Virus record (IMG/VR): IMGVR_UViG_3300032046_005540
Location: 62,001-126,000 of that record
Strand: one strand, 5' to 3'
Source: a virus
Length of the DNA: 64,000 nucleotides
Of the stretch, positions 25,240 to 60,783 are shown piece by piece (position 1 is the first letter of the stretch; each line of letters begins with the position of its first letter). The translations under genes and the position numbers were made by a program. Below the pieces are notes generated by a model that worked only from the letters and a program-made list of their open reading frames with translations, had not been told where the DNA came from and did not search any database.

Positions 25240-25773
25240 TTATATCATTTTAGATAATTCACAAACTTTTTCAACTCTTCGTTGAATTTCTCCTGTTATT
25301 ATATAATACATATGATGATTATTAAAAGAATAAATTTCATTCAATAATTTTTTAATTTCTCTATCAACATCTTTTTGAAATTGAAAATCTTCATCTCTAA
25401 CACTATCTTTTTCCAAAGAAAACTCTATTGGAATATAAAACACGGCACCTGCAAATTGGTCTCTTTCTATTTGACATAATCTTTTCATAAGATTTATAAC
25501 GGGTTCAGGTAATTTATTACTTATAGCATAAGCAGTTTGTCTTATAATACTATCTACAGAAATAAAACTAGGTTTTCCACATACTTTTTGTAAATATCTT
25601 TGAACTGTTTCTATTTGACTAACAATATCACTTGTTTTATTTATTTGAAACCCTTCTTGCTTTGCTTCACGATGAATTCCATCTATAATTTCACAATAAG
25701 GAAATAACTTTTGAATTTCCTTTGCTAAAGTAGTTTTTCCTGTTCCGTGAGCACCTACTAATAAGATTTTCAT
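25240..25773 (-). CDS. P-loop nucleotide kinase-like protein, 177 aa
   Basis: It begins MKILLVGAHGTGKTT, a Walker A (GAHGTGKT) at residues 7-14, followed by EIIDGIHREA, SVDSIIRQTAY and a C-terminal YYIITGEIQRRVEKV. This layout fits the AAA_28/NadR-like ATPase-kinase group of phage and bacterial proteins. It may phosphorylate a nucleoside, nucleotide or cofactor. It stands between the transglycosylase-like gene and a small membrane protein, close to NDP kinase, so nucleotide metabolism is a fair guess. The substrate cannot be read from sequence. Confidence 0.72.
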   Translation of the reverse strand: MKILLVGAHGTGKTTLAKEIQKLFPYCEIIDGIHREAKQEGFQINKTSDIVSQIETVQRYLQKVCGKPSFISVDSIIRQTAYAISNKLPEPVINLMKRLCQIERDQFAGAVFYIPIEFSLEKDSVRDEDFQFQKDVDREIKKLLNEIYSFNNHHMYYIITGEIQRRVEKVCELSKMI

Positions 25774-26053: not shown

Positions 26054-26473
26054 TTATTTATCTCCAAACAATATTTTGAACTCTCTTTGAAAAGATTGTA
26101 ATGAATCTGAAACATGAACTGCATTTTTAGGTAGTTCCGTTCCAAACATTTGTCTAATAGTTCCAAATTTAGCTTTTTTAGGATCTGTATTTCCAACAAG
26201 TTCTCTTAAATGTAAAATAGTTTCTTCAAAATTCTTTTCTGGATGAGATACTATTAAAGTAACTACAGGATCTGAAGTTACAAACTTAAGGTTTCTTACA
26301 AAAAAATCTTTGCCTCTATGTTCATAATAAAGGTCCCTAGCCTGAGTTAATGTCAAAGTCCTAAATTTCATGTGATCAATCTTATAACCATTGTCCTCAA
26401 GAATGGTAATTATTTTTCCTACATTACCTGCTTGCACAGCATCAGGTTTTATTATTACCAAACAAAGGCCCAT
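26054..26473 (-). CDS. ndk: Nucleoside diphosphate kinase
   Basis: A full-length 139-residue NDP kinase. IKPDAVQ near the N-terminus (residues 8-14), a long helical middle and KNAVHVSDS with the phosphohistidine H120 are the family signatures. The enzyme transfers phosphate from ATP to other (d)NDPs to make dNTPs. Normal bacterial enzymes have H-G-S-D; here the Gly is Val, a mild change beside the active site. Phages seldom encode this enzyme because the host has one. Together with dUTPase and the kinase-like gene it suggests control of the dNTP pool. Confidence 0.92.
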   Translation of the reverse strand: MGLCLVIIKPDAVQAGNVGKIITILEDNGYKIDHMKFRTLTLTQARDLYYEHRGKDFFVRNLKFVTSDPVVTLIVSHPEKNFEETILHLRELVGNTDPKKAKFGTIRQMFGTELPKNAVHVSDSLQSFQREFKILFGDK

Positions 26474-26486
26474 TACAACTCCTTTT

Positions 26487-26966: not shown

Positions 26967-26982
26967 CTTACTTACCTCCTCT

Positions 26983-28137: not shown

Positions 28138-28160
28138 TATTGTTTCTCATATTTTATGTT

Positions 28161-28181: not shown

Positions 28182-28207
28182 TAGAATGTAGGTGTAAACT
28201 AAAACTA

Positions 28208-34180: not shown

Positions 34181-34542
34181 CTTCCCTCCATCAATAAATT
34201 TACTATTCTAACTATTTCTTCCCAATTGTTTTCAAATCTAACTGCTCGATCATCAATATAAACATCGGCAAATACTTTGCCTTGAGAACCATCATCAACT
34301 TCATCAAAAGGTATATTATTTCTTTCTAAAAAATCTTTTATTATTCTTACTTGAGTAAGTCTTTCTGCTAAATTTGGATGTAATTTCGTATTGGCTCTGC
34401 AAGAAGTTATAATAATATAACATCCTATTTCTTTCAATAGTCTAATACAACGAATAGCATTTTCTTTCAAAGGACCTATATCTGGATATTCATTTTCAAC
34501 TATTGTTCCATCAAAATCTATAGCAACTACAAAAGGTCTCAT
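34177..34542 (-). CDS. HAD-superfamily phosphatase-like protein, 121 aa
   Basis: The N-terminus FVVAIDFDGTIVEN contains the DxDGT motif of HAD hydrolases, with the nucleophile Asp. CYIIITSCRANT gives motif II (Ser/Thr), and VFADVYIDDRAVRF gives the acidic motif IV. Members of this short type remove phosphates from nucleotides or sugars. It overlaps both neighbours by ATGA, so it is translated with dut and the DUF366-like gene. The substrate cannot be told. Confidence 0.8.
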   Translation of the reverse strand: MRPFVVAIDFDGTIVENEYPDIGPLKENAIRCIRLLKEIGCYIIITSCRANTKLHPNLAERLTQVRIIKDFLERNNIPFDEVDDGSQGKVFADVYIDDRAVRFENNWEEIVRIVNLLMEGR

Positions 34543-35108
34543 TGGACTCCTTTCACCTTATAGCAAGCTTCTTGAATATCTCGAAATTCTTTTGTAAATC
34601 TATCCATTAAAATAATAGCAAAAGATTTTACATCATATCCTAAATCAGGAAGATCTTCTAAACCAATAGCTAATACAGGACAATTTTTTCCAACTTTAAT
34701 ATTTAAACCTACATGGATAAGACCTGAAACTGGAGACGAAGTAGCAATAGAAACAGAAAGTTTTTTACAATCAACAAAAATATCATCTCCTTCACGACGA
34801 AGTTTATAAGATTCTGGTATTGTTAAACTTCTTAAAAAATCAATAGTTTGTGTAATAAAAAGTCTTTGCCAAACAACCATTTCTCTTAAAGAAATATCAA
34901 AAATCTCAATTATGAAATGAAGCATACTCTCACTACTAATAAAATCATTCTTTAATCTATCCTCACAATCTACCAAATGTTCTTTAACTTCCGCAGGGCC
35001 TATAAAACTTACAATACTATTTCCTTTTACTCCATGTGCGTAGGCAAAGTGAGAGTGTAATTGAGAACCATCATATTTTATTTCTCCATTTAAAGATCTA
35101 AACTTCAT
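34539..35108 (-). CDS. DUF366-like protein, 189 aa
   Basis: The sequence LHSHFAYAHGVKGNSIVSFIGPAEVKEHLVDCEDRL, followed by SSESMLHFIIEIFD and VWQRLFITQTI, resembles the DUF366 family of bacteria and archaea as I remember it: Gly-(N/D)-Ser-Ile-Val...GP...HLVD..D...S..MLHFI(V/I)E. The function of DUF366 is not established to my knowledge. Here it is set in the preQ0 run between QueC and dUTPase, which suggests work on a purine or pterin, but this is inference. The C-terminal half is beta-rich (LSVSIATSSPVSGLIHVGLNI). Confidence 0.6.
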   Translation of the reverse strand: MKFRSLNGEIKYDGSQLHSHFAYAHGVKGNSIVSFIGPAEVKEHLVDCEDRLKNDFISSESMLHFIIEIFDISLREMVVWQRLFITQTIDFLRSLTIPESYKLRREGDDIFVDCKKLSVSIATSSPVSGLIHVGLNIKVGKNCPVLAIGLEDLPDLGYDVKSFAIILMDRFTKEFRDIQEACYKVKGVQ

Positions 35109-36135: not shown

Positions 36136-36603
36136 TTAGTTCTCCTTCTCATATGGAAATTTAATCCAAACATCTTTATCTTCACTTGCAGCAAAATAAT
36201 CAGGATCAAATTTTGAATTCTTTTTATAAAATAATACAGAAGTCCGAATGTTTTTGAACCCTTTTTTTCTATATAAATCCACAACGGCTTTCATCGTTTC
36301 TCCTGAATCTACTAATTCATCTACAATCAAAATTCTGCTTTCTTTTATAACATCAGGGAAACACAAATAAGACGGAGATCCTATTTTTAATTTAGATTGT
36401 TTATTTTCTTTAGTATAAGAACTTGTAACAACAATATCTAAAGGAATATTCCAACTATGAGACATAAAAAGTGCTGGAATAATACCCCCGCGAGAAATTC
36501 CCACAACAAGATCAAACTTTTCCTGAGCTTTGTTAGATATAATATCTATAAGGCGGTCAACTAACTGAAAGTAATATTCCCAAGAAATTTCTTCTTTTTT
36601 CAC
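36136..36603 (-). CDS. Purine-type phosphoribosyltransferase
   Basis: LVVGISRGGIIPALFMSH and ILIVDELVDSGETMKAV are the two signatures of type I phosphoribosyltransferases, the second being the PRPP-binding loop. The hood and length (155) resemble xanthine/guanine enzymes (Gpt). It would salvage a purine base with PRPP. Sitting between queC and queE, it may feed GTP for FolE2 or act on a deazapurine base; neither is shown by the sequence. Confidence 0.82.
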   Translation of the reverse strand: MKKEEISWEYYFQLVDRLIDIISNKAQEKFDLVVGISRGGIIPALFMSHSWNIPLDIVVTSSYTKENKQSKLKIGSPSYLCFPDVIKESRILIVDELVDSGETMKAVVDLYRKKGFKNIRTSVLFYKKNSKFDPDYFAASEDKDVWIKFPYEKEN

Positions 36604-37274
36604 TAAACACCTCTTTTATCTTTATCCCAAATTATTTTATGCATTTGAAGACTATACCGAACGTCTAATTGATCCTTCAAAATCCATTCTGCTAATGTTT
36701 TTGGATCCATCTTTCCCCAAACAGGAGAAAATACATATTGTTCTTGTTTTATTGTTTGAGAATTATATTTTAATATAACCATTTTCGCATAGTCATAATC
36801 TTCCCTGTCCCCAATAATAAACTTTATTTCATCACACGGACGAAGATAATAAAAATTTGTCCAACACATTCCTTTTTCCATTCCAGAAAAAGGACATTTT
36901 ACATCCATACAAACAACACTAATATAAGGAATATATTTATAAATAGAAAGACTACCATTAGTTTCAAGAATAATATCTTTATCTAATTCTTTATTTATAA
37001 ACTTAACAAGATCAAAACAATTTGGAGACTGGAGAGGCTCCCCACCGGATAATAAAACTCTTTTACAATAACGATATTTACTTATTTCTGATGCTATTTT
37101 ATTGAACGTCATTATCTTTCCTTCTTTATAAGCCCATTTGCTGTCACAAAAAGAACAACGTAGATTACAGCCTGTTAACCTAACAATAACAACAGGCAAT
37201 CCTTTAGTTTTACCTTCTCCAGAAAATGTATAATATATTTCATTAACTTTTATCCTTTTTGTTCCTTCTTTCAT
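36603..37274 (-). CDS. queE: 7-carboxy-7-deazaguanine synthase (radical SAM)
   Basis: The start YYTFSGEGKTKGLPVVIVRLTGCNLRCSFCDSKWA contains the radical SAM CX3CX2C cluster motif and the FSGEG lead of QueE. VLLSGGEPLQSP and LETNGSL are further QueE landmarks. It rearranges 6-carboxy-tetrahydropterin to 7-carboxy-7-deazaguanine. The gene overlaps RNase HII by ATGA. The 223-residue length is normal. Confidence 0.92.
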   Translation of the reverse strand: MKEGTKRIKVNEIYYTFSGEGKTKGLPVVIVRLTGCNLRCSFCDSKWAYKEGKIMTFNKIASEISKYRYCKRVLLSGGEPLQSPNCFDLVKFINKELDKDIILETNGSLSIYKYIPYISVVCMDVKCPFSGMEKGMCWTNFYYLRPCDEIKFIIGDREDYDYAKMVILKYNSQTIKQEQYVFSPVWGKMDPKTLAEWILKDQLDVRYSLQMHKIIWDKDKRGV

Positions 37275-38232: not shown

Positions 38233-39033
38233 TTAGAAATCCCAATTCTTTTTAAAATATGCTACTGCATTATGTTCATGGATGCTTTCATATGACATTA
38301 CTTTAATACTATATCCCTCAATGCCAGATATTTTATTTAAAGCAATAGCAACATCTCTTGCTACATCCTCTACAAATTTTGGATTTTTAAATGCCTTTTC
38401 CGTAACCCATTTTTCATCTGGGCGTTTTAAAACAGGATAAATATCGCAACTTCCCATTGACTCAATCAAAGAAACAACATCTTCAATCCATAAAGGTTTA
38501 CCTAAAAACTTCAATCTTGCAGTTACTATTGCTCTCTGATTATGAGCACCATATTTACTTATTGCTTTACTACAAGGGCATAAAGTAGTTATTGGAACTG
38601 AAACTTCAAGGTAAAAATCATATTTATTAGATGTTAATCGACCTACAAAAGCACAAGAATACCCTTGGATCCCATTTACTCTTTTTACTGGAGATTCTTT
38701 AGGAATAAAATATTTAAACCTAAAAACAGCATAAGCGTCCTTTGTTTTAAGTTTTCTTTTTAACTCTTCTAAAAATACTCTTAACTTTCTTGAATTTATT
38801 GTTTTATAACGATATTGCATTAAAACCTCAGAAAACCTTGACATATTAATCCCTCTAATCTCTTTCTCAAGGTCTCCATACATTGAAACAATCGCTTGAG
38901 TTGTTTGATATTGTCTCTTTTGTTTTTTAGCAACTAATATAGGAAAACTAACATCTTCAATACCTACTCTATAAAGAGGCACTCCTCGTTTATCTTTTAA
39001 CGCTTGAATATCCGGTAATTGTTCTTCAACCAT
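38233..39033 (-). CDS. folE2: GTP cyclohydrolase FolE2 (type IB)
   Basis: The preferred start is the ATG at 39033 after AAGGAG (266 residues); a longer frame enters queD. LPDIQALKDKRGVPLYRVGIEDV and CPCSKAISKYGAHNQRA, with a metal-binding Cys, are FolE2 hallmarks. HEHNAVAYFK ends the protein. It converts GTP to dihydroneopterin triphosphate, the first step to preQ0 and folate. Type IB enzymes can use metals other than zinc. Gene order queD-folE2 then queE-queC gives the whole route from GTP to preQ0. Confidence 0.93.
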   Translation of the reverse strand: MVEEQLPDIQALKDKRGVPLYRVGIEDVSFPILVAKKQKRQYQTTQAIVSMYGDLEKEIRGINMSRFSEVLMQYRYKTINSRKLRVFLEELKRKLKTKDAYAVFRFKYFIPKESPVKRVNGIQGYSCAFVGRLTSNKYDFYLEVSVPITTLCPCSKAISKYGAHNQRAIVTARLKFLGKPLWIEDVVSLIESMGSCDIYPVLKRPDEKWVTEKAFKNPKFVEDVARDVAIALNKISGIEGYSIKVMSYESIHEHNAVAYFKKNWDF

Positions 39034-39052
39034 AGCTTCTCCTTCCAATTTT

Positions 39053-39481
39053 TTATTCTCCATATATAGCACTCGATTTAGGACCTTCAAACACTTCAAC
39101 ACTTATAAGTTTAACAGGATAAAACTCAGATTGAAAATTGTAAAACAAAAATTGTGCCATATGTTCTGCCGTAGGATTTCCTTGCATAGGATAAATTTGT
39201 TGCCCTTGATCTTTTGAAATAACATTCTGACAATGTAAAATTTCTATAAGAGGATCAGCAAAATTCAATATAAGTCCATGATCCCAATGTTGATCAATCC
39301 ATCCTTGAATTACTTTTTTTACAACAGAAAAATCAACTACCATTCCATCTTTATTAAGATCTTCACTCTCAAATGTAAAAATAGCACGCCAAGAATGGCC
39401 ATGGATACGCCCGCAAGGTCCTTCATAATTTAATAACCTGTGAGCCGCATCCCATTTAACTTCCTTAGCAATCTTAAACAT
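39053..39481 (-). CDS. queD: 6-carboxy-5,6,7,8-tetrahydropterin synthase
   Basis: FKIAKEVKWDAAHRLLNYEGPCGRIHGHSW shows the zinc His residues and the catalytic Cys (GPCGRIHGH) of QueD. DGMVVDFSVVK, HWDHGLIL and PTAEHMAQFL follow as in the family. It makes 6-carboxytetrahydropterin from dihydroneopterin triphosphate. Length 142 is a little above the usual 120. The start overlaps the sigma-like gene by 8 bases, so the preQ0 genes follow it directly. Confidence 0.93.
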   Translation of the reverse strand: MFKIAKEVKWDAAHRLLNYEGPCGRIHGHSWRAIFTFESEDLNKDGMVVDFSVVKKVIQGWIDQHWDHGLILNFADPLIEILHCQNVISKDQGQQIYPMQGNPTAEHMAQFLFYNFQSEFYPVKLISVEVFEGPKSSAIYGE

Positions 39482-41496: not shown

Positions 41497-42888
41497 TTAG
41501 AAGTCTTGTTCATCTCTTTTTGCTTTCTTCCAAATTTCTTGTAATTTATCTAAATCACCTATAAAATTTACACCAAAATCAGCAAATAATTCAATAGCTT
41601 TTGATTCACTATATCTACTCGCTACAATCTTTAAATAAACTTTTTTAGCGTGTTGAGTTGCCATTTCTTGTGCATTATTAATTCCATGCCAAATATTAAG
41701 GATTAAATCACAATGGGCTGCAGCCATATCTGAAAGAGCTACGTGTTCAGTATCCACTTCTTCCCTTTGAACATCTAAAGACCTTCTATTTTGTTGTGCC
41801 GCGGTCAATATAGATACCTTATAAGCTCTCGCAATCTCTTTTAATTCTCGAAATACATTATCATATTTTTCTGACCTATCTCTAAACTTTTCATCAGGTC
41901 TCATTAAATTAGCATAATCAATTAAAATATTATCAGGCTTAACTCCAAACACTTTTTTATGTAATTCTATTTCATAACCAACCCTCGAAGGTGTTATTCC
42001 TCGAGAAATATCAACTACATAAAAAGGACATTTTCTTTCTTTAAGATGCTCTAAAGTGTTCCTATAAATCTTTTCCTCTTCCTCAGTTAATTTAGCATCT
42101 CTTAAATCATTAAAAGAAATGCCGGTATATCTACTTTCCCACATTAATTGAAGCATTGCTAATTCCATTTCAATAGTAATATACATAACTTTATAACCTA
42201 AATCCGCGTCATTACATCCTACATTAAATAGAAAACGGCTTTTGCCTCTTTTCATTCTTCCAAAGACCATTGCAAGTTTTGAAGGAAATTGACCTCCAGT
42301 TGTTTGATCTAATTCAGTCATTCCATAAGGAATTCCTTTGTATTTTTCTGGATGTTCTTTTTTATCTAAATATTCTTTCCATCTTATCTCAGGATCTTCA
42401 TCAAGAAGAAGTCTACGAGTAACTTCATTTGAAGAATCGAATGTTTTAATATTTAAAATCTTTCCAGTAATATCTGACAAAGAATTAGAAATATTTCGGT
42501 CATTTGCTAAATCTTCTACCATATCAAAAGCAGTATTGTATAGTTCTCTTTTAATTTCTAATTCTTTCAACTCATCCAAATAAAACCTGAACCCAGAATC
42601 ATCTACAAATGTTTTTGATAACTCTCCATGTAAAGTTAATAAAGTAAATTGAAGATCAGTAGAAAACTCTTTTTCATTTCTTTTCAAAAACTTCTCTAAA
42701 ATATCGTAAGATAAAGTTTTATGATATTTTTCAAAATATCTACTTATTAAGTCAAATAACTTTTTATGATTTTCATCACAAAATGTTGAAACTTTAATTT
42801 TAGAAAGAGTTTCCTCTATATAACTAACATCTTTAAGTAGATATGAAAGAATAGTTTTTTCAACTACATTATCATTAAATTTTACCAT
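41497..42888 (-). CDS. dnaB: Replicative DNA helicase, DnaB family
   Basis: The 463-residue protein has a DnaB-type N-terminal helical domain (DNVVEKTILSYLL), a linker and the RecA-like motor: GRMKRGKSRF (Walker A), VMYITIEMEL, PDNILIDYANLM (Walker B), SILTAAQQNR (motif 3) and an arginine-finger region (VASRYSES). It unwinds DNA at the fork. A helicase loader (45044-45787) and primase zinc half (40557-41216) are close by. Its stop precedes the hypothetical 86-residue gene. Confidence 0.92.
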   Translation of the reverse strand: MVKFNDNVVEKTILSYLLKDVSYIEETLSKIKVSTFCDENHKKLFDLISRYFEKYHKTLSYDILEKFLKRNEKEFSTDLQFTLLTLHGELSKTFVDDSGFRFYLDELKELEIKRELYNTAFDMVEDLANDRNISNSLSDITGKILNIKTFDSSNEVTRRLLLDEDPEIRWKEYLDKKEHPEKYKGIPYGMTELDQTTGGQFPSKLAMVFGRMKRGKSRFLFNVGCNDADLGYKVMYITIEMELAMLQLMWESRYTGISFNDLRDAKLTEEEEKIYRNTLEHLKERKCPFYVVDISRGITPSRVGYEIELHKKVFGVKPDNILIDYANLMRPDEKFRDRSEKYDNVFRELKEIARAYKVSILTAAQQNRRSLDVQREEVDTEHVALSDMAAAHCDLILNIWHGINNAQEMATQHAKKVYLKIVASRYSESKAIELFADFGVNFIGDLDKLQEIWKKAKRDEQDF

Positions 42889-42890
42889 AT

Positions 42891-43628
42891 TTATTCACTT
42901 TTTTTAGACTTTGGAAAGTTTACAAAAAATGGCATCGCAACATCAAAAGTAAGTCTTGGATCTTTAAAACTTTTAACTACTTCATAATAAGATTTCAAAG
43001 GCATTCCATTCCACTTTTTTTCATTCCACAACTTATTTAACTTTGTACCCTTTGCAGGCCTACAATACATTGCGTGAACTTGAATAATATTAGGAAGAGA
43101 CAAAGATTGTTCTAATGATTCTCTAAACTCCTTTATAGCAGTTTCATTATCTGTTACATAAGGTTTTGCTAATATATAAATAATATACTCAAAATTTCTA
43201 TTTTCACTAACTAACTTTTTTACATCTTCAAAATCAAAACCCTTTCCAATCTCTTTACTTCTATTAGGAAATACCGTCTCTAAACCAATACAAACTTCCA
43301 TTTCAATTTCAGGTTTTTCATTTGGAATAAATTCAGGTCTTGATTCTACTCTTAATTTTTTAACGCCATTTTCTTTTAAATACTTGATAACATCTCTCCA
43401 AGAAACTTGCATTTGTTCTAAATCAAAAAAGGATCCAGAATTAAAAATTCTAAAGTATTCAGGATACCCTCCATATGTTTCTTTACATGTTTTGAATTGG
43501 TCCCAAATATCTTCAGGAGTTGTTTCTGGATCCGTATCTTTTTTGAATCCACAGAAAATGCATCTACCCCATCTACAAGGCTTTACTCTTAAGCAAATTG
43601 TATTTTTATCCATCCAAACACATTTCAT
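42891..43628 (-). CDS. RaSEA-like radical SAM protein (archaeosine formation)
   Basis: CX4CX2C at C18, C23 and C26 (PCRWGRCIFCGF) is a radical SAM cluster site. NSGSFFD (63-69), VESRPEF (94-100), IGLET (114-118) and GKGF (128-131) match the conserved string of the archaeal RaSEA family (SGSFLD, ESRPEF, IGLET, KGF) as I know it. In archaea RaSEA partners with ArcS to make archaeosine in tRNA from a lysine adduct of preQ0. An ArcS-like gene lies just upstream. At 245 residues it is shorter than archaeal members. A DNA target is inference. Confidence 0.8.
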   Translation of the reverse strand: MKCVWMDKNTICLRVKPCRWGRCIFCGFKKDTDPETTPEDIWDQFKTCKETYGGYPEYFRIFNSGSFFDLEQMQVSWRDVIKYLKENGVKKLRVESRPEFIPNEKPEIEMEVCIGLETVFPNRSKEIGKGFDFEDVKKLVSENRNFEYIIYILAKPYVTDNETAIKEFRESLEQSLSLPNIIQVHAMYCRPAKGTKLNKLWNEKKWNGMPLKSYYEVVKSFKDPRLTFDVAMPFFVNFPKSKKSE

Positions 43629-43773
43629 TCATATCCTCCCTCTCTTCTAATCTCCTCAACTCAATATCTATCTCTTTAAGTTTTTTACTTTTTTTATCAA
43701 GTTCTTTTTCCAAATGAACAATTTGAAGTTCTAATTGACCTTTCTTTCTTTTCAAACAATTGTAGTCTTTCAT
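43606..43773 (-). CDS. Small coiled-coil protein, 55 aa, between ArcS-like and RaSEA-like genes
   Basis: The start overlaps the ArcS-like stop (ATGA). The product is a charged helix (KRKKGQLELQIVHLEKELDKKSKKLKEIDIELRRLEE) with no motif. Its end overlaps the RaSEA-like start by 23 bases. It could be a linker subunit of the pair or an accidental open frame; coiled-coil regularity and coupling favour a real gene. Confidence 0.48.
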   Translation of the reverse strand: MKDYNCLKRKKGQLELQIVHLEKELDKKSKKLKEIDIELRRLEEREDMNEMCLDG

Positions 43774-44561
43774 ATTATCCCCTTTATTTTTTCAGCTTCG
43801 GTAGGAGTATCAATCCCACACAATTTAATAATTTCTAAAAATGGTTCATACCTATGAAAATTCCTATATTCGTCAAATTTATTAATTGAAAAATACTTTT
43901 TACATCTTAAATAAACTTGCCACAAATCCGGATACGAATTATTATATTTAAGAACAAACGGATGTTCCCAAAATTCTTCAGGAACTACTCCAATAGTAGT
44001 AATTACTACTTTATAATATTCGTCTAAATTTTCTATTTTCGCATATATCTCCTTATGAGTTTTTGAAGTGTTATAAGGTCTTTCAGCAGAACAAGACAAA
44101 AGTAAACATTTCTTTTTATCAGTTTTAAAACTACTCATTTGATCTAACAATTCACGAATATACAACCTATTATAAGAATGGAAACTTGATACCATTATCT
44201 TTTTATCTTCAGGTAAAATATCTTTAGTAACCCCTTTCAAATCAACTTGCATTAGAATATCAGAACAAATAGGAGTAAAAGAAGCAAACATTTCTATTAA
44301 ATCACGAAGACAACCTTTTTCTTTTGCCCTCTCTATCCAATTCAAAATTTCTTCAATAGAATAAATAGACCATAATCCATAATTAATATCTTTGTGAACA
44401 CTTTCTTTTTCAACCTCATGACCAAAATAAATCAAAAACGGAACTTGACTTAATGGTGCGTTCTTTACAAACCACTTCTCTTTCAACCCACGAGAAGCAA
44501 AAGATTTGAGTGCGGTTCCATTATAAACAAAAGGATATTTTTTAAAATCAACGGTTTTCAT
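43770..44561 (-). CDS. ArcS-like (DUF5591) protein, archaeosine synthase family
   Basis: The key motif is CSAERPYNTSKTH at 157-169. It corresponds to the ArcS signature PC-x3-KPY-x2-S-x2-H (C157, RPY 161-163, S166, H169), with Arg for Lys and Ser before the Cys. VVITTIGVVPEEF and YPDLWQVYLRCKKYF follow, as in the DUF5591 domain. Archaeal ArcS adds lysine to preQ0 in tRNA. This protein lacks room for the PUA domain of archaeal ArcS, so tRNA may not be its target. The gene is followed by a radical SAM partner, and preQ0 is made by neighbouring genes. Confidence 0.75.
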   Translation of the reverse strand: MKTVDFKKYPFVYNGTALKSFASRGLKEKWFVKNAPLSQVPFLIYFGHEVEKESVHKDINYGLWSIYSIEEILNWIERAKEKGCLRDLIEMFASFTPICSDILMQVDLKGVTKDILPEDKKIMVSSFHSYNRLYIRELLDQMSSFKTDKKKCLLLSCSAERPYNTSKTHKEIYAKIENLDEYYKVVITTIGVVPEEFWEHPFVLKYNNSYPDLWQVYLRCKKYFSINKFDEYRNFHRYEPFLEIIKLCGIDTPTEAEKIKGII

Positions 44562-44729: not shown

Positions 44730-45044
44730 TTATTTACCTCCTAAATTTTCAAATTCCTCGCAAGCTTTTTTAAAAACTTCTTTTTTTGTTTTTCTATTAT
44801 AAATAAAACTTTTACTGCCTAAACATTCTTCTACTTCATTCTCTTCGATTTTTTTAAATATTATAAATTCAGGTTCATAATATTTTGAATCTCCTCTACC
44901 ACACCAAGCAGTTTTTCCACCTACCTTACATAACATACCAATTTCTGTTTCTTTTATAATTTCTACATTCGCTCCGAAATCTACCCCAGGCACTTCTATA
45001 CAATTTTTTCCTTTTTCGTTAGTATATCTTTTTATAGTAGCCAT
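44730..45044 (-). CDS. Hypothetical protein, 104 aa
   Basis: A compact beta-rich start (TIKRYTNEKGKNCIEVPGVDFGANVEII) with GGKTAWCGRGDSKYY and a basic helical end. No family recognised. It is coupled to the DnaC-like gene upstream (shared base at 45044) and has a good AGGAG site. Its position suggests a small accessory protein of replication or modification. Confidence 0.6.
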   Translation of the reverse strand: MATIKRYTNEKGKNCIEVPGVDFGANVEIIKETEIGMLCKVGGKTAWCGRGDSKYYEPEFIIFKKIEENEVEECLGSKSFIYNRKTKKEVFKKACEEFENLGGK

Positions 45045-45787
45045 TATTTTTCTCCTAACAATTCTTTTTTAATATCTTTTAAAATCTCAGGACGAAAACT
45101 TTCACCAACTAAAGGAACATTGATCAATCTCTCTGAAAAAATTTCATAAATAGTTTTACCAAAGCCTTCTAAAACTTTTGAAGGTTCCTTATTAGAAGTT
45201 ACAATAAATGGTTTTCCCGAATAATACCTTTTCTTAAACAACTCATCTAACAAAGTATCAATCAATTCTGTTTTATATTTTTTGTCTATTTCATCTACGA
45301 GTAAAAAATCCACATCTTCTATAATATAGAAAAGAAATTCTTTTGTTCTCATATCTCTTAATGCGGTATGAGCTAAATTTATCAATTCCGAAAGAAGAAT
45401 AAAATGAGCTTTATATTTTTGAGTCAAAGCCTTTTTCAAAATTGAACATCCAATAAAACTTTTACCAACACCATAAGAACCATGAATAAACAAACCAGAA
45501 CCTGTTTCGACAACTTTAGATAAATTTTCCGAATACTTACCAATAATTTCTAATGAACCGCTATTTTTATCTAAAAATGGTGAAGTAAAGTATTTAAAAT
45601 CAAGTTCCAAATCCCAATAACTTCTAGGAATATTTGCATTAAGCATATCTACATAACGCCGAAACTCATCAATACAACTACACAATTTAAAACCTTCAGG
45701 AGTTAAATAACGACCTTTACCTTCACATTTAGAACAATTGTCTAAAATCTTTATTTTTAATTTTTCTACATCTTGAACGGAATACAT
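45044..45787 (-). CDS. DnaC/DnaI-like helicase loader (AAA+)
   Basis: A zinc-like CSKCEGKGRYL...CSC at residues 18-39 leads into an AAA+ ATPase: GSYGVGKSF (Walker A), FLLVDEIDK (Walker B), PFIVTSNKEP (sensor 1) and FSERLINVP (arginine finger). The layout fits the DnaC/IstB group that loads DnaB on DNA. With 247 residues it is of normal length. DnaB is encoded about 3 kb downstream. An IstB transposon helper is unlikely because no transposase is near. Confidence 0.85.
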   Translation of the reverse strand: MYSVQDVEKLKIKILDNCSKCEGKGRYLTPEGFKLCSCIDEFRRYVDMLNANIPRSYWDLELDFKYFTSPFLDKNSGSLEIIGKYSENLSKVVETGSGLFIHGSYGVGKSFIGCSILKKALTQKYKAHFILLSELINLAHTALRDMRTKEFLFYIIEDVDFLLVDEIDKKYKTELIDTLLDELFKKRYYSGKPFIVTSNKEPSKVLEGFGKTIYEIFSERLINVPLVGESFRPEILKDIKKELLGEK

Positions 45788-45983: not shown

Positions 45984-46526
45984 TTATCTTATAATAACCT
46001 TTGTTCCAACCATTACATTTCTCCATACTATTTCTAAATCTATATCCTCTAATCTAATACAACCATGCGAAACTCTTCCCTGAACTCTTGCTCCTCTAAT
46101 ACCATGAATTCCCACTTCACCTCCTAAATCTAACTTATACTTTCCTAAATGATTCCTTATAATTCTACTTGGATCATTAGGTGGAGGAATTGGTTTTCCT
46201 TCTTCTATAAATGCCCAATCTGGTTTTCTCCAAATTGGATTTCGAATTTTAGCTACAACCTTTCTTTCTCCCGAAGGAGTTCCAAATTTCCAAACTTTGT
46301 TTCCATATTTAAGAATTTTCCCTGTTCCTATTCCACATTTAGCTTTCCAAATTGTATCAGCATCTATTATCAAATATAAAGTCTGAGAGGTCTTATCAAT
46401 TAATATATAAGTTTTAGTTGAGTCTATTGTTCGGTCATGGTAATCTACTATTCCAACTCCATAACTTTTTTGGAAGCTAAAAAGTAAACTAAAAATAATA
46501 AGACTTAAAAAAATAGTTTTAGACAT
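45984..46526 (-). CDS. L,D-transpeptidase (YkuD domain) with signal peptide
   Basis: The first 22 residues are a signal peptide (KTIFLSLIIFSLLFSF). The YkuD core has YILIDKTSQTLYLI at the start, and HGIRG (141-145) plus SHGCIRL (153-159) with catalytic C156. These enzymes form 3-3 cross-links in peptidoglycan or attach proteins to it outside the inner membrane. Phage genomes rarely encode one. It may reinforce or remodel the host wall, or act against lysis by others. A lipoprotein and a possible outer-membrane barrel are encoded about 2 kb upstream. Confidence 0.88.
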   Translation of the reverse strand: MSKTIFLSLIIFSLLFSFQKSYGVGIVDYHDRTIDSTKTYILIDKTSQTLYLIIDADTIWKAKCGIGTGKILKYGNKVWKFGTPSGERKVVAKIRNPIWRKPDWAFIEEGKPIPPPNDPSRIIRNHLGKYKLDLGGEVGIHGIRGARVQGRVSHGCIRLEDIDLEIVWRNVMVGTKVIIR

Positions 46527-52615: not shown

Positions 52616-53386
52616 TCACTTTATTTCTTTAAGATGATTAAACATAGATTGAGGAATCGATAAGTAAACACCATCTACAATATTTTTAACAACATCAATA
52701 ACCTTATTTGCTTGCAGTAAAGTATAAGTTGTAAAATCTTTATCCGAAATCTCTTTAAATGTATTTAAATAATCTTCAGGAATAACAACACCAGGAATTT
52801 TTGATAAATTATCTAAATGATTTTTAGATTTTGGAATCATTATACCTAATAACACAGGTAAATTATATGGTTCTATTTCTTTTAAAAATTTTAATGCTTG
52901 ACTTATAGTAAATACAGGTTGCGTTTGAAGGTAATCAGCACCAGCATCTATTTTACTTTGTAAATATTTGTGATCTATATTATTCGGATCTACGGCAACA
53001 CCAACCAAAATATTATAAGACTTTACTAACTTAATTACATCAACTATACACGCCCCACTCCAAAATCCTTTACTATGAGGATCCCCAGATAAAACAAGTA
53101 TTATATTTACACCAATTGATGCTGCCTGAAGCATATCAGATCTTATTATAACTTCAGATCTCCCAGAAAGAGGATAATGAACAATTACTTTAAAGCCTTC
53201 GGATATCAAATATTGTGCAGTATAAAGAGCTGGTAATTTAGGTTTTCCCATTGGATTAGAAACAACACTAATAGTATCAATACCTACTTCTTTAAGTATT
53301 TTAATATGTTGAGATAGTTCTTTTAAATTTCCACTACCCGGAGGAATAATTTCAACAACTTTTGTAAAATTTGAAAACAATTTCAT
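52616..53386 (-). CDS. Methylenetetrahydrofolate reductase-like protein
   Basis: A TIM-barrel protein with EIIPPG at 12-17 (E12 matches the catalytic Glu of MTHFR), the LSGDPH loop at 99-104 and KIDAGADYLQTQPVF at 145-159, the three landmarks of the MTHFR family. The family reduces 5,10-methylene-THF to 5-methyl-THF with FAD, feeding methionine and SAM. The GDPH has His where GDP(P) is normal. It stands at the end of a gene run with several SAM methyltransferases, so it may support methyl supply (inference). It overlaps the CgeB-like gene by ATGA. Confidence 0.82.
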   Translation of the reverse strand: MKLFSNFTKVVEIIPPGSGNLKELSQHIKILKEVGIDTISVVSNPMGKPKLPALYTAQYLISEGFKVIVHYPLSGRSEVIIRSDMLQAASIGVNIILVLSGDPHSKGFWSGACIVDVIKLVKSYNILVGVAVDPNNIDHKYLQSKIDAGADYLQTQPVFTISQALKFLKEIEPYNLPVLLGIMIPKSKNHLDNLSKIPGVVIPEDYLNTFKEISDKDFTTYTLLQANKVIDVVKNIVDGVYLSIPQSMFNHLKEIK

Positions 53387-54372
53387 ATTTGCCTCATTAC
53401 TTCTAAATATTGGTTAACTCTAGTGGTAATTGTATGATTTTTCATTACTTCTTCCTGACCACATTTTGCTATTTGTTCTCTTTCATCGTCATGTTCTAAA
53501 TAATATATAACTTTAAATTTTAAATCTTCAATTGTTCCATCATAAGTTACTAAATGTTTCCCAGGAATAAAAAACTTTTCAAGATTATCCATAGGAGGAC
53601 AAATGAAAAAACATCCACAACCCATTGCTTTAAAAATTCTATCCGAAATTTTCCAACCCATATTATCTTTTATTACATGAAGAGTATCAAATGTTATTTT
53701 AGATTGCCTATAAACATTAGTCATTTCAGAACCATAAAGACATTGGTCGGAAGAATTTTCAGATATATTTCCAATAACCTTAACTTTACAAAAATCTTTT
53801 AAAGTATTAATACATTCCTCTCTCCTAAAAATGTTACGGCCTCTTTGCGAATTGCCTATAAAACAAATGTCATAAATTTCATAATTAGTATCTAACCTTT
53901 CAATTAAAGGTTTATAATATGTTTGATCATAATATTGGGGCAAAAACACTGCATTTTTTGCATAATCTTTTAATATTTCTGCCATTCCTTCAACTGATGT
54001 TATAATTAAATCAAATACTCCTTTATATCTACCCCAATATCCTAAATCATTTTTTGGTTTATAAGCATCAGCATTCCATAAAACTAACTTAAATCCCAAT
54101 TGTGATATTTTTTCAAAAAACTCTCTTGGTTCAACTCCTGCTCCAGTTACAAATACATAATCTGGATTAAATAATTTTACTGATTCAACCATATGAGTTT
54201 CATAGTTATATTTGGCAGTACCAGGAGGCAAAGGATGTTCATAGGGTAAACATCTTTCTGGCTCAATTAAACATTTAACTAAAACTTCATAGCCCAAATC
54301 TTTCATTTCCCGAGCAATCAAAAGACCATTTTGATAAGGCAAATTACAATAAACAAATGTTACTATTTTCAA
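53383..54372 (-). CDS. CgeB-like glycosyltransferase, paralogue 1
   Basis: The protein has an N-terminal Rossmann-like half (KLVLWNADAYKPKNDLGYW; TSVEGMAEILKDY) and a C-terminal GT-B half with DRIFKAMGCGCFFICPPMD, LEKFFIPGKHLVTYDG and a repeat-like EDLKFKVIYYLEHDDEREQIA. That C-terminal pattern is the Glyco_trans_1_2/CgeB signature. It shares this with the genes at 55391-56347 and 56344-57285. Acceptor and sugar are unknown. ATGA overlaps with both neighbours show tight coupling. Confidence 0.78.
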   Translation of the reverse strand: MKIVTFVYCNLPYQNGLLIAREMKDLGYEVLVKCLIEPERCLPYEHPLPPGTAKYNYETHMVESVKLFNPDYVFVTGAGVEPREFFEKISQLGFKLVLWNADAYKPKNDLGYWGRYKGVFDLIITSVEGMAEILKDYAKNAVFLPQYYDQTYYKPLIERLDTNYEIYDICFIGNSQRGRNIFRREECINTLKDFCKVKVIGNISENSSDQCLYGSEMTNVYRQSKITFDTLHVIKDNMGWKISDRIFKAMGCGCFFICPPMDNLEKFFIPGKHLVTYDGTIEDLKFKVIYYLEHDDEREQIAKCGQEEVMKNHTITTRVNQYLEVMRQI

Positions 54373-55394
54373 AAATCACCCCCATCAATCACTTTTTGAA
54401 AAACATCTAAATACTGGGATTTTAAAACATTCCAAGAAAATTTATTCTCAATAATTTCTCTATTCCTTTTAGATACTTCTTTTAAATCAATGTTCATTAC
54501 AAAATTTATCTTAAAAACGAAATCATCTAAATCTGGTTCATAAACAACCTTTTCTTCACCAAAATGTGAATTATTTTTAACTTTTATAAGAAATTTTTTA
54601 TCTTCAACAACTTCATTCATTGGAGGAGCATCAGTTGTTATAACAGGAAAACCACAAGCCATTGCTTCATATATAGGAAGGCCATTTCCTTCAAAATGTG
54701 ATGGTGCTAAATAAATATCTCCTTCTTTATAAAGATCCATTATTTCAGGTTTTTCACCTACTCTTAAATCAACACCCTCAAGGCAGCCATATTTTTCAAG
54801 AGGAACTTGAGAATTTATAATTAACTTCACCTTCTCTTTATCTAACTTTTGAAAAGCTCTTAAAACTAAATCAGTACCTTTTCTTTTAAAATCTACATAA
54901 CCAGCATTATGTAATAATACTTTGTTTTCCCCTCTTTGAATAAATTTAAAATAATCTGTATCAATAGGATAAGGTAAATAATAACATTTCCATCCTTTAG
55001 ATTTTATTATATTATAACTCCACTTATTAACACAAAGCCACAAATCTACAAAATCTTTATACTTTTCAAGAATAGGTGTTCTTACACTATCTAACATAGG
55101 AATATAAACAATTTTAATTCCTTTTTCTTTTAAAATTTTTAAATAATCCCAACAAAAAGGATATTCTATTATCAAAACAACATCTAAACCAAAATTTATA
55201 AATTTTTCTAAAGCTTCTTTACTCAGATTTTCTTTTGAAGTTATTACAAAACTACATCTTAAATCATTTAAATTAGTGCCTTTTGCTTCCCATCTTATAA
55301 CAAGTTGACTATTAATTTCAAGATGTTTCCTAAAAAATTTTAACATTACTCCTAAACCAGAGTTATTAGCATATCCTATTGTGCCTATTCTCAT
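54369..55394 (-). CDS. GT4-family glycosyltransferase
   Basis: LLHNAGYVDFKRKGTDLVLRAFQKL and HFEGNGLPIYEAMACGFPVITTD contain the two landmarks of GT4 enzymes: the Gly-rich nucleotide loop and the E-x7-E element (E...E). The second Glu is in EAMACG. It transfers a sugar from a nucleotide-sugar with retention. It lies between two CgeB-like paralogues and is coupled to both by ATGA overlaps. The acceptor is unknown. Confidence 0.82.
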   Translation of the reverse strand: MRIGTIGYANNSGLGVMLKFFRKHLEINSQLVIRWEAKGTNLNDLRCSFVITSKENLSKEALEKFINFGLDVVLIIEYPFCWDYLKILKEKGIKIVYIPMLDSVRTPILEKYKDFVDLWLCVNKWSYNIIKSKGWKCYYLPYPIDTDYFKFIQRGENKVLLHNAGYVDFKRKGTDLVLRAFQKLDKEKVKLIINSQVPLEKYGCLEGVDLRVGEKPEIMDLYKEGDIYLAPSHFEGNGLPIYEAMACGFPVITTDAPPMNEVVEDKKFLIKVKNNSHFGEEKVVYEPDLDDFVFKINFVMNIDLKEVSKRNREIIENKFSWNVLKSQYLDVFQKVIDGGDF

Positions 55395-56347
55395 AATTTT
55401 AGTTTTTTCTTAATAATTGAAAGGTATCTACCAACACTTTTATCAATAGTATATTTATCAAAAATTTCTTTTTGCCCTTTTAATGCTATCTTTTCTCTCG
55501 CATCTTCGTGTTTTAAATAATAATCAATTTTCTCTAACATTTCTTCTTTAGTATGAAAAACATCAAGATGTTTTTTAAGAATAAAAAGCTCTTCAATTCC
55601 TGGAATATATTCAGTTAAAAGAAAACATCCACATCCCATAACCTGATACATTCTAACAGAAAATTGTAGGTTGTAATTTAATTCTCCTCCAGAAATCATA
55701 TTCAAACCTATTTTAGATTTCTTATAACAATCTGCTATAAATTTTCCATCATAATTAATAACACTTCCTAAAGAACTAAATCCCCATCCAACAATTATTG
55801 TTCTATATCCCTTTTTAACTATTTCTTTAAGGTATTCTTCTCTTTGTAGAGAACAAGGCGTTTTATTACCTACAAAAATAACATCATCTGCTTTTGCTAA
55901 AATATTATCTGATTTATAATAAGTATGATCAAAAAAATGAGGACTCCAAACAACTTTATCTGTATAAGGTTTTGCAATCTCAATATGCCCTTTCATTGTA
56001 GTTATAAATAAATCAATAATATCAAACGCTTCTAAAAATAAATGTTTTGAATTTTTTTGATTAAGCCAATAAGCATCTGGATGCCATATTACAATTTTTG
56101 CTCCCAAACTTTTTAAACATTTAATAATATCAAAGCCTCGATTTATTCCTCCAGTCTGAAATACAAAATCAGGTTTAAATTCTAAATAAAGAATTCTAAT
56201 TTGTTCTGCTGATTGATCAAAAAATCCAATAACAATTTCATGCCCTTGTCTTTTTAACTCTTCTACAATTCTAATACCATCCTGATATTCATTCAAACCA
56301 TTGCAAGTTTTAAAAGGAAACCTTTTTACAATCACTAATATCTTCAT
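55391..56347 (-). CDS. CgeB-like glycosyltransferase, paralogue 2
   Basis: The N-terminal half has VIVKRFPFKTCNGLNEYQDGIRIVEELKRQGHEI and ending FVFQTGG, and the C-terminal half SVRMYQVMGCGCFLLTEYIPGIEELF with KIDYYLKHEDAREKIALKGQ. It is clearly paralogous to the next upstream gene: both carry FQTG, PHYFD-like PHFFDHTYYK and MGCGCFLLTEYIP. This suggests a local duplication. Likely makes part of a repeating glycan. Function by family only. Confidence 0.78.
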   Translation of the reverse strand: MKILVIVKRFPFKTCNGLNEYQDGIRIVEELKRQGHEIVIGFFDQSAEQIRILYLEFKPDFVFQTGGINRGFDIIKCLKSLGAKIVIWHPDAYWLNQKNSKHLFLEAFDIIDLFITTMKGHIEIAKPYTDKVVWSPHFFDHTYYKSDNILAKADDVIFVGNKTPCSLQREEYLKEIVKKGYRTIIVGWGFSSLGSVINYDGKFIADCYKKSKIGLNMISGGELNYNLQFSVRMYQVMGCGCFLLTEYIPGIEELFILKKHLDVFHTKEEMLEKIDYYLKHEDAREKIALKGQKEIFDKYTIDKSVGRYLSIIKKKLKL

Positions 56348-57285
56348 AAATATACTCTCTTTTTAATTACATCTAAATATTGATTTACACGGGCATCAAT
56401 GTCATGTTTTTCCATTACCTCTTGATATCCTTGTATAGCTATTTTTTCTCTAATCTTTGGATGTTCCAAATAATAATCAATTTTTTCTATCATTTCTTCT
56501 TTAGTATGGAAAACATCGAGGTGAACTCCAGGAATAAACATTGTTTCAATATTAGGAATGTATTCAGTTAAAAGGAAACATCCACTTCCCATAACTTGAT
56601 ACACTCTAACTGAAAATTGTAAATCACAATTAAATATACCTCCAGAAACTATATTTAATCCTATTTTAGAACTTTTATATGCTTTCGCAATATGCTCTCC
56701 ATTCCAATCTGCTTTAGTTTCTTCATCATTAATAGTAAAACCATGCCCGACAACTTTTAACTTATACTTTTTCTCAAGCTCTTTTAAATATTCTTCTCTT
56801 TGAGGAGATGCTTCAGTTTTTCCTCCAATAAAACAAATGCCATTTTCTTGCTTAATATTCTTATTTGTTTTAAAAAAAGTTGAATCAAAATAGTGAGGAG
56901 CCCAAACTACCTTATCAGTATAAGATTTTGAAACTTCAACATGACCTCTCATTGTAACTAAAAACAAATCAAACACGTTAAAAGCATCTAAAAAATAAGA
57001 TCTGGAAGGTTCTCTAAATAACCAATAAGCATCAGGATACCACATTACTAATTTTGCACCTAAATCTTTTAAACTATTTTGAACTCCAAGGTTACCTTTT
57101 GAATGTCCCATTCCTGTTTGAAATACAAAATCAGGCTGAAATTTTCTATATCTTGATATATAATCTTCTATTGATTTTCCAAAAGAAGCAGTATGAGTTT
57201 CATGACCCAATCGAGATAACGACTCTTGTATTCGTATTCCATCAGAAAAAGAATTTTTAGTTTCTATGATTAACATTATTTTCAT
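56344..57285 (-). CDS. CgeB-like glycosyltransferase, paralogue 3
   Basis: The preferred start is the ATG at 57285 (313 residues), which follows AGAAGG and the FkbM-like gene stop; a longer frame enters that gene. The GT-B C-terminal half shows VRVYQVMGSGCFLLTEYIPNIETMF and KIDYYLEHPKIREKIAIQGYQ. Compared with paralogue 2 the strings PDAYW, DLFxTTMKGH/DLFLVTMRGH and VVWxPHxFD are shared. Probably a sister enzyme adding a similar sugar. Confidence 0.78.
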   Translation of the reverse strand: MKIMLIIETKNSFSDGIRIQESLSRLGHETHTASFGKSIEDYISRYRKFQPDFVFQTGMGHSKGNLGVQNSLKDLGAKLVMWYPDAYWLFREPSRSYFLDAFNVFDLFLVTMRGHVEVSKSYTDKVVWAPHYFDSTFFKTNKNIKQENGICFIGGKTEASPQREEYLKELEKKYKLKVVGHGFTINDEETKADWNGEHIAKAYKSSKIGLNIVSGGIFNCDLQFSVRVYQVMGSGCFLLTEYIPNIETMFIPGVHLDVFHTKEEMIEKIDYYLEHPKIREKIAIQGYQEVMEKHDIDARVNQYLDVIKKRVYL

Positions 57286-57287
57286 AT

Positions 57288-58034
57288 TTACATACCTTCT
57301 ACAAAAGGATCTACATCTCTCCATAAGAGTAAAATACATGGCCAATCTTTAGTTTTATTCATTAATTGTTTACTAGATCTTAAATCAATTATACCATCCT
57401 TACATATTCTACCATATGAAAAACCTAATTTTTCAACTAAATTAAAAAATTGTAATTCAGTAAAACCAGCTAATTCGTAATGACGATTACTGAGTTCACA
57501 CACCATTACTAATTTAGAACTGCGATTAATAAGATTTTGAAGTCCTTCAATTACCCCAACCTCAGCACCATCTACAACAATTTTAATAAAATCTGCTTTC
57601 TCAACATTTTGTAAAATATCATCTCCAACAGCTACTTCTAAATCTAATTCTTTTTTATTTTTATAATAAGAAACTCCAGTCTTATTATGTAATCCAAAAT
57701 TAAAAGGTTTAATATTTTTATATAATTCTGAATTCTTTACAAGAACCTCATAAGTACCGAAAAATGGTTCAAAAGCATAAATAATTCCTGTTTCTCCTAT
57801 TTTTTGAGAAGCCATTACAGAATATATTCCTACATTTGCACCAACATCAATACAAGTCATTCCTGGTTTTAAATATTTACCTACAACATCAAGTTTTTCA
57901 TTTTCATAAGTACCTAACTTAATACATTTGCTAACAAAATAATCACTACCCACTCTAACTTTTTCATCTTTTTTGGCTTCATCATCTTTATCAAGAAGCC
58001 ACATTTTTCCTACAAAAGTATCAACTAATTCCAT
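57288..58034 (-). CDS. FkbM-family SAM methyltransferase
   Basis: The preferred start is the ATG at 58034 (AAGGAG site, 248 residues). TCIDVGANVGIYSVMASQKIG is the SAM-binding motif I, and ADFIKIVVDGAEVGVIEGL (FkbM-typical IKIDVEG variant) follows. FkbM enzymes O-methylate sugars or other hydroxyls. It lies between a CgeB-like glycosyltransferase gene and two related class I methyltransferases, so it probably decorates the same glycan. The frame overlaps nothing important. Confidence 0.83.
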   Translation of the reverse strand: MELVDTFVGKMWLLDKDDEAKKDEKVRVGSDYFVSKCIKLGTYENEKLDVVGKYLKPGMTCIDVGANVGIYSVMASQKIGETGIIYAFEPFFGTYEVLVKNSELYKNIKPFNFGLHNKTGVSYYKNKKELDLEVAVGDDILQNVEKADFIKIVVDGAEVGVIEGLQNLINRSSKLVMVCELSNRHYELAGFTELQFFNLVEKLGFSYGRICKDGIIDLRSSKQLMNKTKDWPCILLLWRDVDPFVEGM

Positions 58035-58045
58035 TATTATTCTCC

Positions 58046-58786
58046 TTACGGTTTTTGTAAAACTACTCCTACAGGCATGCATCTCGACACATACATTGGA
58101 TATGTTTTACAAAATTTTGAAAAAAGAGTATCAAAATTATCAAAATTATCTTTATCATTTAATAATTTTAAACCAGTATCTTCAATTAATTCTTTAATTT
58201 TGTCTGGAGTATAACATGTAATAATTGGATCCGCAGGACTTCCATACCATGTCTTAAACTCTTTGTAAGCTTCTAAAGTAAAAACAATTCTACCCCCAGG
58301 TTTTAAAATTCTATCTAATTCTTTAAATATAATTTTTGCATCTTCTATTGGATTATGCTCTAAAGAACTACAAGAAACAATATGATCAAAAAAATTACTT
58401 TCAAAATTTGTACATTTTAAATTTTGACAAGAAAATCTCAGGTCTACATCAAATTGTTTTTCTTTTTCTTTTGACCACTCTTCAATATGACTACCTCTTC
58501 TATCTACAGTATATAATTCATAACGTTTTGCTAAAAAAATTTGAAAAACTCCTCTACCACATCCAGCATCCAAAATTTTATCTTTTGGAAGAAATGCAGC
58601 CTCTGGTATTGCTTTTACTGGAAGATGCCAGTATATCCAAGGATAGTCTAACATATATTGGCTTATAGCAAGGCTTTCTTCAGCTTCTTTAATGCTATGG
58701 CTTGTTCTACATATTTCAATCAATTCCTCATTTACTCTTTGATATTCAAATGTATTTTTCAAATCAATATCTAATAATTCTATCAT
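58046..58786 (-). CDS. Class I SAM methyltransferase, paralogue A
   Basis: KILDAGCGRGVFQIFLAKRY is motif I. HIVSCSSLEHNPIEDAKIIFKELDRILKPGGRIVFTLEAYKEF shows motif IV and the post-motif of UbiE/Methyltransf_11-type enzymes. The C-terminal part has DPIITCYTPDKIKELI and a Cys near the end (SRCMPVGVVL). Together with its upstream neighbour (58804-59526) it forms a diverged pair sharing SSLEHN and PIITCYT. The substrate is probably a sugar or lipid-linked glycan (inference). Confidence 0.82.
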   Translation of the reverse strand: MIELLDIDLKNTFEYQRVNEELIEICRTSHSIKEAEESLAISQYMLDYPWIYWHLPVKAIPEAAFLPKDKILDAGCGRGVFQIFLAKRYELYTVDRRGSHIEEWSKEKEKQFDVDLRFSCQNLKCTNFESNFFDHIVSCSSLEHNPIEDAKIIFKELDRILKPGGRIVFTLEAYKEFKTWYGSPADPIITCYTPDKIKELIEDTGLKLLNDKDNFDNFDTLFSKFCKTYPMYVSRCMPVGVVLQKP

Positions 58787-58803
58787 TATTTTACTCCTCT
58801 TAT

Positions 58804-60770: not shown

Positions 60771-60783
60771 TTTTTCTTTCCTT

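Follow-up and report, generated by a model that had tools for sequence, protein, structure and literature searches.

A phage gene pair related to archaeal ArcS and RaSEA beside a preQ0 pathway: a putative two-step route to deoxyarchaeosine

Described routes to archaeosine in tRNA and phage DNA

The closest described counterpart of the locus reported here is the archaeal ArcS-RaSEA system, which acts at tRNA position 15 (T. kodakarensis, PMC11298593). In that organism, ArcS is inactive without its RaSEA partner and accepts both the preQ0 nucleoside and its 5'-monophosphate, with the phosphate accelerating the reaction and a Km for the nucleotide of 433 uM (PMC11298593). For phages, Hutinet et al. 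2019 (PMC6884629) predicts 2'-deoxyarchaeosine (dG+) from ArcS, QueF-L or Gat-QueC and describes the characterised DpdA proteins as acting on DNA. It also reports dPreQ0, dG+ and dADG in the DNA of Vibrio phage nt-1, along with an ArcS homologue, and describes what ArcS does in phages as 'less clear'. An earlier note on the present DNA knew of phage routes that use Gat-QueC; as the nt-1 ArcS homologue shows, others have been proposed. Since phage ArcS homologues were already known, the new element here is RaSEA. We found no discussion of RaSEA in the excerpts of Hutinet et al. 2019, and no link of RaSEA to a virus in the literature covered, which excluded Cui et al. 2023 (PMC10516641).

The window analyzed in this study is a stretch of 64,000 nucleotides, bases 62001-126000 of a 168,267-base (168 kb) IMG/VR record, and the features discussed below are collected in Table 1. 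Genes for terminase, portal, major head protein, tail sheath, and baseplate mark the record as that of a sheathed-tail phage. Its host may be bacterial, to judge from an L,D-transpeptidase-like gene identified by eye, and one tRNA-Leu is encoded within the window. Several other aspects of the genome were observed in passing. In both the terminase (1078 aa) and the portal protein, the middle part matches intein- or endonuclease-containing families, which suggests inteins, and many short HNH/NUMOD homing-endonuclease-like genes were seen by eye, scattered through the genome. Near the end of the window, a block of genes that by eye resemble those for glycosyltransferases, methyltransferases, and aminotransferases probably serves glycan synthesis.

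Three phage systems invite comparison. With the locus studied here, nt-1 shares preQ0 genes, the presence of a transglycosylase, and a DUF5591 protein of small size (VPFG_00169, 226 aa), but no RaSEA-like gene was found in it, its DpdA is of another family, and its DUF5591 protein is only distantly related to ours. A separate observation concerns VPFG_00173, which lies directly after QueC in nt-1, starts with MCG, and by eye resembles a stand-alone class II glutamine amidotransferase; it could be part of a split Gat-QueC that explains nt-1 dG+. The DpdA/Gat-QueC route of phage 9g shares the presumed product, dG+, and a role in DNA, but relies on Gat-QueC amidotransferase chemistry, whereas the QueC found here is plain. 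Finally, Vibrio phages vB_VcorM_GR7B and GR11A have an ArcS-like protein beside QueC, the closest relative outside the two phages described below (E 4e-14), but no RaSEA; instead, lysine 2,3-aminomutase and acetyltransferase-like genes lie nearby. In GR7B, the ArcS-like gene is accompanied by two QueC-like genes and, some genes on, by the lysine 2,3-aminomutase and GNAT-like proteins, which perhaps point to a beta-lysine-derived deazaguanine.

Table 1. Coordinates of the features discussed, in window numbering unless another sequence is named
Feature	Coordinates	Strand	Evidence
ArcS-like protein, 263 aa	43770..44561	minus	PF17884, NF040592, alignment to archaeal ArcS, motif
55-aa coiled-coil-like ORF	43606..43773	minus	sequence reading
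RaSEA-like radical SAM protein, 245 aa	42891..43628	minus	TIGR01210, phmmer, motifs
DnaB-like gene	41497-42888
DnaC-like loader gene	45044-45787
L,D-transpeptidase-like gene	45984-46526		by eye
QueD (6-carboxytetrahydropterin synthase)	39053..39481	minus	PF01242 3.5e-30; TIGR03367 8e-23
FolE2 (GTP cyclohydrolase IB)	38233..39102	minus	PF02649 1.6e-80; NF010200 above cut-off
QueE (7-carboxy-7-deazaguanine synthase)	36603..37274	minus	TIGR04349 1.5e-59; PF04055
Purine phosphoribosyltransferase-like protein	36136..36603	minus	PF00156 4.5e-22; PDB 1vdm purine PRTase 6.7e-18
QueC without Gat domain, 228 aa	35447..36133	minus	PF06508 4e-53; TIGR00364 at cut-off
DUF366 protein adjoining QueC	34539..35108	minus	PF04017 3.3e-54; PDB 2ddz 1.2e-25
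DpdA-like (DNA-)guanine transglycosylase, 264 aa	24431..25225	minus	nine-member profile vs PDB 7ui4; hhalign
P-loop kinase-like protein (AAA_28), adjoining DpdA-like gene	25240..25773	minus	PF13521 9.6e-9; conserved in related phage
Nucleoside diphosphate kinase (NDK) near DpdA-like gene	26054..26473	minus	PF00334 1.5e-39; conserved in related phage
Genes whose homologues flank the pair in the related phage	21349-21921 and 19307-20449
Repeat-bearing protein	26983-28137; related phage 16543-17844		short-repeat runs
HNH/NUMOD homing-endonuclease-like genes	2949-3776, 7170-8207, 11069-12064, 20437-21231; many more outside		by eye
Glycosyltransferase-, methyltransferase-, aminotransferase-like block	53383-63915		by eye
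Terminase; portal	242-3478 of its piece; 1-2196 of its piece		mid-parts match intein-/endonuclease-containing families
nt-1 VPFG_00169; VPFG_00173	14416-15096; 18099-18707 of its piece
GR7B ArcS-like to lysine 2,3-aminomutase/GNAT-like region	19866-28421 of its piece

A conserved pair of short ArcS-like and RaSEA-like proteins

Both ORFs of the pair proposed in the earlier note are present, exactly at the coordinates it gave, on the minus strand, which it had not specified. The ArcS-like protein matches Pfam DUF5591 (PF17884) with an E-value of 1.3e-8 and 35.2 bits, above the gathering score of 26, and its counterpart in a related phage scores 38.2 bits, so the proposed ArcS family holds at the level of homology. 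Against the two NCBIfam ArcS models it reaches 2.3e-14 (NF040592) and 6.4e-13, with scores of 52.9 and 48 bits that fall far under the equivalog cut-offs of 440/600 bits. The archaeal signature PC-x3-KPY-x2-S-x2-H that the note had recognized is present in part: C157, R161-P162-Y163, S166, and H169 are in place, but the Pro before C157 is Ser in the window (SCSAERPYNTSKTH). The related phage has Pro at this site (PCSAKRPYNVSKTH), and both phages keep the Cys, PY, Ser, and His while substituting Arg for Lys; the strict pattern occurs in neither.

For comparison, 14 archaeal ArcS sequences bearing the signature were taken from 30 genomes gathered with an archaeal 16S probe. Alignment to archaeal ArcS takes in the last part of the TGT-like region, then the linker and DUF5591; the phage protein is without the ~100-240 residues that precede the signature and the ~150 that follow it in archaea. 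The N-terminal TGT-like and C-terminal PUA-type regions of archaeal ArcS are missing. The domain architecture of ArcS is established and PUA is a known RNA-binding domain, from which we infer that the phage protein has shed tRNA recognition. An AlphaFold model based on the two-sequence alignment was poor (pLDDT 39). DUF5591 was not found in 299 genomes of one bacterial phylum, and archaea also encode short stand-alone DUF5591 proteins (213-227 aa, AF0587-like).

The RaSEA-like protein matches the RaSEA model TIGR01210, the profile check suggested for it, with an E-value of 4.4e-30 and 105 bits (79.5 bits in the related phage), under the equivalog cut-off of 212. It carries the radical SAM site C18-x4-C23-x2-C26, a spacing also seen in several archaeal members, as well as NSGSFFD (63-69), VESRPEF (94-100), and IGLET (114-118), all as originally read; these make up the RaSEA motif set of radical-SAM Cys, SGSF[FL]D, E[ST]RPE, and GLET. 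The ArcS and RaSEA motifs occur nowhere else in the ~90,000 ORF residues of the two phage records, and a chance match was rejected on this basis. The comparison set of archaeal RaSEAs comprised the 17 sequences over the TIGR01210 cut-off in the 30 genomes. The phage protein aligns to archaeal RaSEA over its full length by phmmer, and its closest match among the 17 comes from a Methanosarcinales genome with neighbouring ArcS and RaSEA (E 4.3e-27, 85 bits). A C-terminal C-x2-C...C-x-C motif, found in 14 of the 17, is absent from both phage proteins, and the N-terminal extension of the RaSEA of one archaeal genome (G001) has no counterpart in the window. A frameshifted longer RaSEA in the window was considered and rejected on sequence. 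In one Methanoculleus genome, a second RaSEA paralogue that clears the TIGR01210 cut-off is diverged and reads NDGNIF instead of TSGSF.

The phage proteins are much shorter than those of archaea (263 and 245 aa against about 520-700 and 320-415), and they are accompanied by a DpdA-like protein where archaea have ArcTGT. Because they fall under the equivalog cut-offs and some defining domains are missing, we class neither as a complete ArcS or RaSEA; the family assignments of the earlier note are supported as statements of homology. PHROGs offers no functional name for either protein.

Distinguishing RaSEA from the queuine lyase QueL required particular attention, as QueL (PDB 6p78) alone among solved structures gave the radical-SAM protein a strong match (7.7e-10). 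The two are homologous and similar in length (QueL chain, 251 aa), share C-x4-C-x2-C and NSGSFF, and cleave, in the phage case by prediction, a C-N bond at a 7-deazaguanine substituent. QueL has no ESRPE, however, and the phage protein is closer to the best archaeal RaSEA: phmmer gives 4e-27 for archaeal RaSEA vs 1e-13 for QueL, and the same 133 residues score 67.7 bits against the best (Methanosarcinales) RaSEA vs 43.2 against QueL, with some archaeal RaSEAs scoring below QueL. Furthermore, neither phage record shows QueF or a canonical TGT. The QueL fragment itself scores 63 bits on TIGR01210, and therefore this model alone does not separate the two. A maximum likelihood tree does not place the phage proteins within archaeal RaSEA; they join the QueL fragment with weak support (64/91) on long branches, possibly through long-branch attraction. 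Since neither the model nor the tree separates QueL, RaSEA function is argued mainly from the ArcS partner.

The genes run, on the minus strand, from the ArcS-like gene through a 55-aa ORF to the RaSEA-like gene; the small ORF shares 4 nt with the end of the former and 23 nt with the start of the latter, so that translational coupling through it is possible. IMG/VR pattern scans, which used the single proteins and phage-plus-archaeal alignments, returned a single further viral contig that carries both genes (73 kb); the earlier note had suggested a search for such phages. In this related phage, 70 bases separate the ArcS-like gene (77% identical) from the RaSEA-like gene (69% identical) that comes after it, and the 55-aa ORF was not found at this position. 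Gene-by-gene comparison showed the two phages to be otherwise in collinear blocks. The pair lies between DnaB-like and DnaC-like loader genes in the window, and between homologues of other window genes in the related phage, which holds an MT-A70-like gene (by eye) in the corresponding slot. The same order at a different genome position indicates that the pair moves or is kept as a unit, and conservation, joint relocation, and gene overlap together argue for a joint function; this evidence supports functional coupling of the two proteins. Among the archaeal genomes searched, three (G011, G012, and G024) likewise have ArcS and RaSEA side by side, in some cases in the same order. Both phages also have a protein, otherwise conserved, with a short repeat in long runs (NQVENQVWSQVRNQV; NQIGNQVRNQI).

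Relatives elsewhere were scarce. The phage RaSEA-like protein found no tblastn match among phage (50,697 records) or plasmid records, archaeal RaSEA found none in any of the 50,697 phage records, and a pattern scan of genome contigs with the two-phage RaSEA alignment gave no relative.

PreQ0 genes and a DpdA-like transglycosylase

FolE2, QueD, QueE, and QueC were all found by family profiles, confirming the full preQ0 pathway of the earlier note, and its plain QueC (228 aa, no Gat domain) was likewise upheld. A purine phosphoribosyltransferase-like protein and a DUF366 protein flank QueC in both phages and are candidate accessory members of the cluster. No QueF/QueF-L, canonical TGT, or GATase_6 was found in either phage record, each of which may be a fragment. 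With plain QueC and no GATase_6 in the records, the locus does not fit the Gat-QueC type, and other known G+ synthases were not found in either record.

As a single sequence, the DpdA-like protein had no match in Pfam or PDB. A profile built from nine aligned phage members has the solved DNA-guanine transglycosylase 7ui4 as its top PDB match (E 0.0021); the H-LG and S-D-S/T motifs line up between them, in agreement with the earlier reading; hhalign against DpdA2 of nt-1 gave an E-value of 0.0014 at 18% probability. In phages of Weizmannia, Bacillus, Cellulophaga, Flavobacterium, and Chryseobacterium, the gene for the family member sits within or close to a preQ0 cluster; in Vibrio D479 and Aeromonas Ahp1 it has GTP cyclohydrolase nearby. 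The Flavobacterium phage member is annotated as DpdA. A viral scan with the protein returned nothing. Its AlphaFold model from a two-sequence alignment was poor (pLDDT 46), and although a Foldseek search with it listed TGT structures along with aldolase barrels, the E-values above 0.02 were too high for us to give this any weight.

In each of the nine members, a P-loop kinase-like gene either adjoins the DpdA-like gene or lies three genes from it; the kinases are of different families, several being annotated or matched as dNMP kinases. In both phages, an NDK and a kinase share a run with the DpdA-like gene. These neighbours raise the alternative that modification occurs at the nucleotide level.

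A proposed pathway and its alternatives

The earlier note's idea of an archaeal-type two-step synthesis on DNA is partly supported. We propose that both proteins work like ArcS and RaSEA, and we regard two-step synthesis of deoxyarchaeosine as the most likely function of the pair, with confidence just on the favorable side of even. FolE2, QueD, QueE, and QueC would make preQ0, which the DpdA-like transglycosylase would exchange for guanine. The ArcS-like protein would then join lysine, via its epsilon-amino group, to the preQ0 nitrile, and the RaSEA-like protein would cut the lysine C-N bond to leave the formamidine of archaeosine. Both would be stripped catalytic cores; the regions they have lost are linked, at least partly, with recognizing tRNA, as would suit enzymes that act on something else. 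That target would most likely be the phage's own DNA, which the phage probably disguises in this way as a shield against host nucleases. The sequences show the genes, their homology, the conserved pairing, and no other known G+ synthase in the two records; the individual reactions, whether they take place on DNA or on a nucleotide, and the protection of phage DNA are what we infer. Since T. kodakarensis ArcS takes the preQ0 nucleoside and its 5'-monophosphate, a core without the tRNA-binding parts is chemically plausible. Against this pathway, contacts between RaSEA and ArcS might need the missing cysteine motif and the flanking domains of ArcS. The scores far under the equivalog cut-offs, the position of the radical-SAM protein in the tree, the Ser in place of Pro in the window's ArcS motif, and the poor AlphaFold model of the ArcS-like protein also speak against it.

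The same two-step chemistry might instead take place on nucleotides before replication. The DpdA-like protein would swap guanine in a deoxynucleotide, or the purine phosphoribosyltransferase would make the nucleotide; the ArcS-like and RaSEA-like proteins would work on the monophosphate, and the P-loop kinase and NDK would complete the triphosphate for the phage polymerase. The kinase neighbours in nine of nine members, the NDK and kinase in the DpdA-like run of both phages, the phosphoribosyltransferase inside the preQ0 cluster, and the activity of T. kodakarensis ArcS on the 5'-monophosphate are all in keeping with this. However, the characterised DpdA proteins use DNA (Hutinet et al. 2019), large phages commonly encode nucleotide kinases, those found here belong to more than one family, and the reported nucleotide Km of ArcS is high. 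We consider such a route unlikely, if still worth serious attention, and its fullest form, in which dG+ is built on mononucleotides, kinases give dG+ triphosphate, and the polymerase replaces guanine wholesale, decidedly doubtful.

Synthesis on DNA also has to be weighed against readings that change the product or the target. The radical-SAM protein may be a QueL-like C-N lyase or an enzyme for another adduct, in which case the product would be another 7-deazaguanine, such as the preQ0-lysine amidine or a further changed group. The solved relative 6p78, the TIGR01210 score of QueL, the weak tree joining, the short length without the cysteine motif, and the lysine-derived groups hinted at by the GR7B genes all lend themselves to this reading; RaSEA better accounts for VESRPEF, for GLET, and for the higher score over the same region, nothing in the records indicates a queuosine-type substrate given that QueF and canonical TGT were not found, and the linkage with the ArcS core is tight. 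On balance, we find it rather improbable. Modification of tRNA, for example at position 15 of the phage tRNA-Leu or in host tRNAs, would follow the known role of archaeosine and both archaeal enzymes, and the window does encode that tRNA. Yet no archaeal or bacterial TGT was found in either record, the sole transglycosylase is DpdA-like, and the ArcS PUA-type region and RaSEA C-terminus are gone, making this highly unlikely. That the pair consists of captured archaeal fragments with no joint function would account for two truncated, divergent proteins, but the ORFs are intact in two phages at 69-77% identity, keep their catalytic motif residues, and have relocated together, and we give this idea almost no credence.

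In these two phages, ArcS-like and RaSEA-like proteins pared down to their catalytic cores occur together with the whole preQ0 pathway and a transglycosylase, which makes ArcS-RaSEA-dependent deoxyarchaeosine synthesis testable in E. coli with three genes. We know of no solved structure of the complex that carries out the ArcS-RaSEA radical-SAM reaction, and the pair provides small enzymes for its structural study. If the doubtful mononucleotide form were true, it would give phage deazaguanine DNA its first finishing step by a radical-SAM enzyme. If the preferred two-step synthesis is correct, it would add a further finishing chemistry for phage deazaguanine DNA and would mean that an archaeal tRNA pathway has been redeployed in viruses of bacteria.
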